34,942 bases of DNA from a virus. The stretch is from positions 1-34,942 of IMG/VR virus record IMGVR_UViG_3300007734_000615; one strand, written 5' to 3'. How positions within the stretch are numbered: position 1 is the stretch's first letter; each line of letters begins with the position of its first letter. The position numbers and the translations under genes are program-made. The notes beneath the pieces are model-generated. The model had not been told where the DNA came from. It did not search any database and saw only the letters and a program-made list of their open reading frames with translations. Shown here piece by piece: positions 9,589 through 10,723 of the stretch.

Positions 9589-9618
9589 ATGTTAAGCCAA
9601 CTTACAACGCCACGTCAA
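9589..9618 (-). promoter_or_regulatory. Main early-left promoter
   Basis: On the minus strand, TTGACG (9618-9613) and TAACAT (9594-9589) are 18 bases apart. Operator-like sites lie at both ends: AAGCCAACTT at 9594-9603 and AAGCCCGCTT at 9617-9626, the latter overlapping the -35 box. The promoter faces away from the Cro-like gene 90 bases to the right, giving the usual divergent control region. Confidence 0.75.
9594..9603 (-). promoter_or_regulatory. Operator-like site at main left promoter -10
   Basis: AAGTTGGCTT on the minus strand, running into TAACAT. It belongs to a set of four 10-bp near-identical sites (consensus AAGYGGGCTT) at 8939-8948, 9594-9603, 9617-9626 and 9660-9669. Three of them abut a -10 box at exactly the same offset. 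These are likely binding half-sites or sites for the Cro-like protein (inference). Confidence 0.6.
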
Positions 9619-9626
9619 GCCCGCTT
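9617..9626 (-). promoter_or_regulatory. Operator-like site at main left promoter -35
   Basis: AAGCGGGCTT on the minus strand, whose last TT is the start of the TTGACG box. It is identical to the site at 8939-8948, and a protein bound here would cover the -35 element. Confidence 0.55.
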
Positions 9627-9645
9627 GCAAAAATATTTTTGGGTG

Positions 9646-9674
9646 TTGCAAAAAAACGAAAGTGGGCTTAACAT
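9646..9674 (+). promoter_or_regulatory. Promoter of the Cro-like gene (predicted leaderless)
   Basis: TTGCAA (9646-9651) and TAACAT (9669-9674) with 17 bases between. The expected transcription start, 7 bases after the -10, falls on the A of the ATG at 9681. There is no ribosome site before that ATG. Leaderless control genes are known from lambda (cI from PRM). The operator-like site AAGTGGGCTT (9660-9669) runs into the -10 box, which fits autoregulation. Confidence 0.65.
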
Positions 9675-9680
9675 CGCACG

Positions 9681-9842
9681 ATGGACAAGAAACAAGCCAT
9701 TGAAAAAGCGGGGTCGGCCATGGCGCTGGCCAAGTTGCTGGGCATCACGCGCCAGGCCATCAGCCAGTGGGGCGATGCCCTGCCCGCGGCCCGTTTGTGG
9801 CAGCTGAAAGCCCTGCGGCCCAAGTGGTTCAAGGGCGGTTGA
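9681..9842 (+). CDS. cro: Cro-like helix-turn-helix repressor, 53 aa
   Basis: Small basic protein. Residues 14-34 (MALAKLLGITRQAISQWGDAL) form a helix-turn-helix with the AKLLGI-TRQAISQW pattern of the P22 Cro/YdaS-like family. P22 Cro is only slightly longer (61). The C-terminus is short and basic (RPKWFKGG), and there is no CI-type dimerisation or protease domain. It lies to the right of a divergent promoter region with repeated sites, as cro does in lambdoid phages. No CI gene is seen on the other side. Its stop overlaps the -35 box of the next promoter. Confidence 0.85.
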   Translation: MDKKQAIEKAGSAMALAKLLGITRQAISQWGDALPAARLWQLKALRPKWFKGG

Positions 9843-9868
9843 CAAGGAATTTTTTGTTGATGTATGAT
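9839..9868 (+). promoter_or_regulatory. Strong promoter reading into gene-free region
   Basis: TTGACA (9839-9844) and TATGAT (9863-9868) with 18 bases between form a near-consensus sigma70 promoter. The -35 box contains the stop codon of the Cro-like gene. The predicted start is near 9875. The first bases of the transcript form a 6-bp hairpin (CGTCTG 9875-9880 with CAGACG 9891-9896). Confidence 0.75.
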
Positions 9869-9874
9869 CCGACC

Positions 9875-10040
9875 CGTCTGGAGTGGCATTCAGACGATGA
9901 ACAGAGGAAATTAACCCCGCAGGGTACTGTGTGGTCTTGTCGTACGGCAAGCGAGTCTTTTGACCATCTGTTCAATCGTCTTGCTGTTGCTCTCGCCAAG
10001 AGCCAAGACCACAGAGCATCTTGCGGGGTTTTTGCTTTTG
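9875..10040 (+). ncRNA. Candidate structured RNA in the control region
   Basis: Starts at a strong promoter and carries nested complementary arms. AACCCCGCA (9913-9921) pairs with TGCGGGGTT (10022-10030), and TGTGGTCTTG (9930-9939) pairs with CAAGACCACA (10004-10013). The two stems are perfect, 9 and 10 bp, separated by a symmetric 8/8-base internal loop. The outer stem is followed by a T-rich tail (TTTTTGCTTTT), so transcription could end near 10040, giving an RNA of about 165 bases. A frame is open across it but has no coding features. It could be a regulatory RNA, a 6S-like polymerase mimic, an attenuator or a put-like antitermination site. Confidence 0.6.
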
Positions 10041-10369
10041 CAGACCGTACTCCGCACGATAGCAAGCACCCCAATCGTGGTGGCGCGGAAGGAAAGCGTA
10101 GCCAGTATGCTGCAAGGCTAGGGGGCAGTTCCCGAATAATCTGGTCGGCTGGTCGAATCATCAAGCCGAGGGGCGTACGGTATCCAACCCGTAGCATGAT
10201 GATCCCGCAAGGGGGTGAAACCTTCCCTCTCTACTCCTGTTGGGGTAGGGGGGTCTTTGGGTGAAATTTATTGAATTGTGAGACACGGCTAGGTTTGGAT
10301 TGATCCCCAGACCGAAAGGCGAACCTCCCGCTTGCCGCTGTTTCTTTACTGGAGGATTGGAGAAAAGCA
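10041..10369 (+). other. Gene-free leader before the right operon, with RNA hairpins
   Basis: No convincing gene on either strand. Two plus-strand RNA hairpins stand out. CCTCTCTACTCC (10226-10237) pairs with GGGGTAGGGGGG (10242-10253) over 12 bp with a 4-base loop, several pairs being G-U, which marks the plus strand as the folding one. GGTTTGG (10292-10298) pairs with CCAGACC (10307-10313). No clear sigma70 promoter is seen, so the right operon may be transcribed from the 9839 promoter by readthrough. Confidence 0.5.
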
Positions 10370-10723
10370 ATGTTTGAAAGCGGGTTCGATAAATTCTGGG
10401 CAGCATGGCCAAAAAGCCCCAGGAAGGGCGCAAAAGCGGCCTGTCTGGCCAGGTGGAAGAAGGGTCTGTACGAACACTGTGCAGACCAAATAATTAAGCA
10501 CGTCGAGTGGCAAAAAACCACCGACCAGTGGCTGAAGGACAACGGCGCATTCGTACCTGCGCCCCTGGTCTACTTGAACCAGATGCGGTGGGATGGGGCT
10601 GAAATACCTGAGCCAAAAAAGGTTGTCTCTATTTCGCAACAGTTCGAAGAACGCACTCGAAACGCTGTTCCGATGCCTGACTACATTCGTGAGCGCCTGG
10701 CGCAAATTAGGCGGGGCGTATGA
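10370..10723 (+). CDS. Putative replication organizer-like protein, 117 aa
   Basis: First gene of the right operon, with a strong ribosome site (GGAGGATTGGAG before ATG). The pattern FDKFWAAWPKSPRKGAKAAC ... FVPAPLVYLNQMRWDG matches the C-terminal module found in phage replisome organizers and lambda O/DnaT-like proteins (FWxxYPxxxxK ... P.TWLN..RW). Here that module stands alone without the usual N-terminal winged-helix origin-binding domain. It may help load the host helicase, but no helicase loader gene is visible beside it. The stop overlaps the next start by 4 bases. Confidence 0.7.
   Translation: MFESGFDKFWAAWPKSPRKGAKAACLARWKKGLYEHCADQIIKHVEWQKTTDQWLKDNGAFVPAPLVYLNQMRWDGAEIPEPKKVVSISQQFEERTRNAVPMPDYIRERLAQIRRGV

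Follow-up and report, generated by a model that had tools for sequence, protein, structure and literature searches.

The region between cro and the replication gene

The window, by which we mean the whole stretch of 34,942 nucleotides analysed here, is an environmental record of a freshwater bacterial virus. It encodes P22-like portal and head proteins, a Cro-like protein and the recombination proteins ERF and YqaJ. Next to cro lies a sigma-70 promoter on the plus strand (9839-9868), with TTGACA at 9839-9844, an 18-bp spacer and TATGAT at 9863-9868 (11 of 12 matches). As a preliminary description of this DNA had stated, it is near-consensus and its -35 element contains the cro stop codon, TGA at 9840-9842. 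Another near-consensus promoter (11/12), for the leftward early genes, is found on the minus strand at 8963-8934, with no copy of the RNA described below behind it. The replication gene follows at 10370-10723; its product is matched by longer phage replication initiation proteins in their C-terminal part only, aligning to positions 178-262 of the 288 of PHROG 9474, and lacks the N-terminal domain. Directly upstream of this gene, positions 10282-10355 give a sub-threshold match to the Rfam int-alpA RNA (29.1 bits against a cut-off of 35.8; E 5e-4 in 601 bases), in which CCUCC could mask the GGAGG ribosome site, and similar sequence is present upstream of the replication gene in three other loci (L011, L025 and L033).

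Judging from the comparison of homologous sequences, positions 9875-10040 are a conserved structured noncoding RNA of ~165 nt, hereafter RNA1, behind which lies another structured element, RNA2. The preliminary description had called this a region without genes, although it is crossed by open frames (9767-10264 on the plus strand and 9829-10197 on the minus strand). The frames searched, 9860-10261 (+) and 9615-9950 (-), had no family match, and among homologues no frame is favoured by the distances that separate conserved blocks (39/36/34 and 45/34/30 over the three frames). We therefore regard the crossing frames as chance frames and RNA1 as non-coding, with no conserved protein read across it.

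Structure and covariation of RNA1

RNA1 consists, in order from its promoter, of a 5' hairpin (H1), a rod of ~25 bp that encloses an apical hairpin and is crossed by a helix a:a', and a terminator-like U-tract. Comparison with shuffled sequence, as the preliminary description had suggested, supported a stable fold: the folding energy of 9875-10060 is -78.2 kcal/mol, whereas shuffles give -55.7 (sd 4.1), which corresponds to z = -5.45, and none of 200 shuffles was as good. To examine the pairing we used A2, an alignment of 62 non-redundant RNA1 members, which supports six helices including a pseudoknot. Overall, 97.9% of cells are paired and 26 pairs have double-sided changes (321 such cells versus 89 when shuffled). 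The covariation score is 0.318, compared with 0.142 for shuffled alignments and 0.05-0.09 when the pairing is slid, and the slid controls are near 40% paired. The pairing is thus conserved among homologues with compensatory changes.

The 9-bp and 10-bp perfect stems previously noted are indeed present at 9913-9921/10022-10030 and 9930-9939/10004-10013. The 'symmetric internal loop' placed between them, however, is mostly paired through G-U, G-C and A-U, so that the two stems merge into an almost unbroken rod of about 25 bp whose mismatches are single-base only. Its 5' strand, AACCCCGCAGGGTACTGTGTGGTCTTG, spans 9913-9939 and its 3' strand, located from the stem coordinates and the A2 pairing, spans 10004-10030 (both on the plus strand, as are all parts of RNA1; A2 helix 4, 98.5% of cells paired). 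That the rod core does not vary in A2 is in part an ascertainment effect, since a pattern in that core was used to find most members; contigs fetched through the replication gene include variant cores with compensatory changes, such as UGCGGUC/GACCGCA for UGUGGUC/GACCACA in L023. Inside the rod, helix c joins 9944-9951 to 9980-9987 (A2 helix 5; 98.2% of cells paired, five pairs with double-sided changes).

H1 (9875-9896; CGTCTGGA-GTGGCA-TTCAGACG; A2 helix 1) is also paired in 98.2% of cells, with double-sided changes in seven of its eight pairs. Between H1 and the rod lies a hypervariable segment, GAACAGA (9899-9905), which pairs with TCTGTTC (9967-9973) as helix a:a' (A2 helix 3), again with double-sided changes in 7/8 pairs. 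The longest helix between the two segments averages 10.8 within a member's own sequence versus 7.2 with mismatched partners, and nearly every member can form it. Because a:a' joins a segment 5' of the rod to one inside it, it crosses the rod as a pseudoknot.

The loops of H1 and of the apical hairpin e (9989-10003; GCTCT-CGCCA-AGAGC, invariant in A2) offer a further contact, in that UGGC in the former (9884-9887) is complementary to GCCA in the latter (9995-9998). As both loops are invariant in A2, the kiss cannot test itself within this class, but L143 keeps the complementarity with other letters (GCUAA/UUAGC), and L038 has a longer version (GUGGCAU/AUGCCAC). Such a kiss may form within one molecule or between molecules.

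Directly 3' of the rod, and kept in all homologues, is the U-tract TTTTTGCTTTTG (10029-10040), the T-rich tail of the preliminary description, which is likely to be part of an intrinsic terminator and to mark the 3' end of RNA1. In class A it reads U5 G C U4, weaker than the canonical form. We infer that rod and U-tract together act as an intrinsic terminator.

The promoter belongs to the same conserved arrangement. Across 106 distinct loci the spacing between the -10 element and H1 is constant, the -10 lying mostly 13-14 nt upstream of GTGGCA, and 40 of the 106 have a promoter scoring 10-12 of 12, compared with about 1% of shuffles. Transcription is predicted to start at or just upstream of the base of H1 (9875). 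With covarying pairing and a promoter at constant distance both conserved, the original proposal of a promoter-driven structured RNA stands.

Distribution of RNA1

RNA1 was found in more than 100 environmental phage contigs, which are fragments and partly redundant. The inner stem together with its spacing occurs in at least 120 stretches of viral contigs, nearly all of those listed being 79-85 bases in total, and the aligned matches have promoter, 5' hairpin, rod and U-tract in common and in fixed order. A covariance model built from the 62 non-redundant members matched a single locus in each source, most sources being parts of contigs, and scores were usually 130-190 bits; it also matched members reached through neighbouring genes rather than through RNA sequence. 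Weaker hits on the opposite strand arise from the symmetry of the rod. Each contig searched carries one RNA1 copy.

In most loci RNA1 and RNA2 lie, in this order, between cro and the replication gene, and ERF is encoded on the opposite strand. Eight loci instead have RNA1 just behind a terminase gene, all of one family, and L151 has it just behind a terminase gene of another family; PHROGs confirmed both types. L218 combines RNA1 directly downstream of the terminase with a 12/12 promoter.

Rfam 15 gave no gathering-threshold match over RNA1 in the window or in 16 loci, and at E<5 the best hits over RNA1 itself (searched in 9800-10400) were at chance level. Distant blastn with queries of 901 and 181 bases found no match in 50,697 named phages, the exact conserved RNA1 motif was absent from 84,980 bacterial and archaeal genomes, and RNA1 was not found in the open-access full-text literature searched. 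We infer the host from one MAG and one Variovorax genome. A contig of a Comamonadaceae MAG has the same replication gene and an analogous RNA; the covariance model had no match in 401 genomes of that MAG's family, a set without a positive-control genome. MW202484 is the one deposited genome found to carry a relative. Its analogous cassette bears the annotation of a hypothetical protein, UOF77725.1, which spans most of an RNA1-RNA2 cassette (1734-2093 of L381; MW202484.1 33533-33892) and is probably not a protein.

RNA2 and further RNA1 classes

RNA2 lies directly 3' of RNA1, with no room for another promoter between them. In the window it is of the type we call Y (10041-10275, plus strand, 3' border approximate) and starts with the conserved 5' motif CCGTACTCCGCACGATAGCA (10045-10064), which recurs in many viral contigs among the matches listed. 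It is about 250-300 nt long, falls into types X, Y, Z, W and V, and is as widespread as RNA1. Besides the window it was seen in L208, L039, L057, L199 and others, and it is absent from Rfam. A tRNA/tmRNA search of RNA2 found none. Type X shows strong covariation of its own, and an all-pairs covariation scan of this type revealed no helix between RNA1 and RNA2. Each element can also stand alone: RNA2 is found without RNA1, and L143 (9434-9610) has a divergent RNA1 whose U-tract leads straight into an ATG, with no RNA2.

Upstream of the same RNA2 start, among the matches listed, we found further RNA1 classes that are unrelated in sequence and share the layout, namely promoter, H1, rod and then T5-T9 at the same place. 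In such classes (L016, L019, L034, L257, L369, L374, L377 and L368) the H1 loop can kiss the rod over 7 bp, and this pairing covaries. Across the RNA2-anchored set, again among the matches listed, the H1 loop and the rod interior share complementarity of at least seven bases in 53 of 106 members, a lower bound because automatic detection put H1 in the wrong place in some members. The kiss sequences are diverse (GUGGAAA, GUGAGAA, GUAGGAA, GUGGCAA, GUUGCGG, UGGAACA and UGGUAAC). In L312 and L320 an extra conserved-looking hairpin module (GGGACTAGGTCGG...CCGATCTAGTTCC) sits between the other-class RNA1 and RNA2. The flanks of RNA2, named from sequence reading among the matches listed, vary as well: RusA-like and toprim-like genes occur upstream, and a replication gene or an oxygenase-like gene downstream.

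Two mutually exclusive folds

A second arrangement, which we call state B, pairs 9891-9905 with 9967-9983 in one long helix (9891-9983, plus strand); the H1 3' strand and segment a are thereby joined to a' and the 3' strand of c, which excludes H1, the kiss and the distal part of helix c. The structure described above is state A. In A2, column 26 of H1 covaries with column 119 through A-U, G-C and G-U (66 of 67 paired), while column 9, the H1 partner of column 26, stays U as 26 varies. On a tree built without columns 26 and 119 these changed 15 and 12 times, five of the changes falling on shared branches (p = 0.005), which lends state B modest support. Pair 20:102 also emerges in the all-pairs covariation scan.

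In equilibrium folding of truncated RNA, which is not a kinetic simulation, sequences ending at the apical hairpin, with the rod 3' strand yet to come, adopted state B with no H1 in 111 of 113 cases, and full-length folds restored H1 at a mean probability of 0.91. RNA1 appears to have two mutually exclusive shapes and seems built to switch between them.

Possible function

A cis-acting attenuator is the best fit to an element that combines its promoter with two exclusive folds and a braced terminator rod and that stands before further transcribed elements. We propose, at a probability of roughly 45%, that RNA1 is a kinetic attenuator of the early transcript, at which either a short RNA is released or transcription continues into RNA2 and the early genes. 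Transcripts from its own sigma-70 promoter would begin with RNA1 as their first ~165 nt. State B would form first during transcription, holding the rod 5' strand in a loop, and emergence of the rod 3' strand would make refolding to state A possible, whereupon H1 would reform, kiss the apical loop and brace the rod. Were state A reached in time, polymerase would stop at the U-tract and a compact RNA of ~165 nt would be released; were state B to persist, transcription would run through into RNA2 and the genes beyond, which in most of these phages means the replication gene. The switch might be tuned by a protein, a ligand or another copy of the RNA.

The RNA1-RNA2 pair precedes or follows different genes (replication, oxygenase-like, terminase), however, so a self-contained locus suits the data equally well as a leader. 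The main rival, a tentative reading that this variety of contexts keeps close behind the attenuator, is that RNA1 is a free-standing, trans-acting small RNA whose terminator sets its 3' end, readthrough into RNA2 being incidental; its compact fold would bind another RNA or a host machine such as polymerase, the ribosome, a nuclease or a defence protein. An autonomous promoter-RNA-terminator unit, present once per contig searched and found even behind a terminase gene with a perfect promoter (L218), is what one would expect of such an RNA, as is a primary sequence more invariant than pairing alone requires, and an arms race would give sequence-unrelated classes with a common layout. Nevertheless, RNA2 follows RNA1 nearly everywhere, and a simple small RNA has no need of two-state covariation.

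Alternatively, RNA1 could be the variable 5' domain of one large ornate RNA of about 450 nt, comparable to GOLLD, with the U-tract as an internal linker and a kiss that may oligomerise the molecule. The two elements do travel together in several contexts, RNA2 strongly covaries on its own, and GOLLD likewise joins a conserved 3' part to a variable 5' part with kissing loops (PMC12286853). We nonetheless consider this unlikely: the lack of any RNA1-RNA2 helix in the all-pairs scan weakens it, the U5-U9 tract behind a strong stem in every class resembles a terminator, and either element occurs without the other.

Less probable still is a put-like role, in which RNA1 binds the transcribing polymerase so that later terminators are ignored. 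RNA1 is indeed transcribed first from an early promoter, and, in line with the preliminary description, no N- or Q-like protein was found among the early-region ORFs tested; its size, fold, single copy per contig searched and terminal U-tract differ from those of put RNAs (PMC9378689), and it also lies after terminase genes. Finally, a long inverted repeat beside a replication gene, with open frames across it, might recall a DNA operator, a replication origin or coding sequence, but G-U pairs, strand-specific hairpins, a fixed promoter distance, pseudoknot covariation and block spacing that is not a multiple of three make this very improbable.

We offer as speculation, with low odds, that phages of freshwater bacteria have a modular RNA system in common, in which 5' modules of unrelated sequence stand before a conserved, ornate RNA of ~250 nt. 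Every module would consist of a terminator rod that a 5' hairpin braces by way of a hypervariable kiss, and the hypervariable pairing would set a type-specific, RNA-only switch that gives superinfection immunity. If so, RNA1 released by a resident phage could act on the nascent RNA1 of an invader of the same type and tip its switch, which would extend RNA-based superinfection immunity beyond the P4 and P1 examples. More broadly, RNA1 represents a widespread and well-supported class of structured RNA in environmental phages that is in no RNA library searched, and its two-state structure and modular kissing-terminator design yield clear and cheap predictions about RNA-only control of a phage early transcript.

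Comparison with known systems

In 6S RNA the rod is interrupted at its centre by a large single-stranded bubble, which imitates an open promoter. RNA1 shares the long rod, which had prompted the earlier likening, whereas it is phage-encoded and pseudoknotted and lacks the defining bubble, as its rod has single-base mismatches only and 98.5% of cells paired. The Rfam 6S models gave no gathering-threshold match in the window and none at E<5 in 9800-10400. The resemblance thus fails, and identity with 6S RNA is ruled out by the missing bubble.

The likeness to put RNAs, also raised earlier, holds in part. The put RNAs of HK022 antiterminate in cis by way of the beta' zinc-binding domain. Like them, RNA1 is structured and stands first in an early transcript. 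However, put RNAs are ~70 nt long, have two stem-loops, occur as putL and putR and have no terminator of their own (PMC9378689), whereas RNA1 is ~165 nt long and pseudoknotted, ends in its own terminator-like U-tract, is present once per contig searched and has terminase-adjacent loci. Only the position agrees, and size, fold and copy number rule out identity.

GOLLD and ROOL are likewise phage-encoded, large, conserved RNAs with pseudoknots and kissing loops and of unknown function. RNA1 and RNA2 together are shorter and have a U-tract between their parts, and the GOLLD and ROOL models of Rfam had no match in the window or the 16 loci.

By its logic RNA1 may be likened to the P4 leader with its CI RNA and to IsrK of Gifsy-1, structured leaders in which complementary segments govern the outcome and whose short RNA acts on the readthrough transcript in trans. 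There, premature termination controls downstream phage genes and yields a short RNA and a readthrough transcript (PMC4825925). P4 CI RNA is processed out of its leader and pairs with seqA and seqC, whereas RNA1 has a kiss of its own H1, a crossing helix and RNA2 behind it. RNA1 carries the sequence signals of its own promoter and then of a terminator before downstream phage genes, both presumably active, and, as in P4 and IsrK, has complementary segments that can form mutually exclusive structures, to which both the covariation of states A and B and the nascent folds point.
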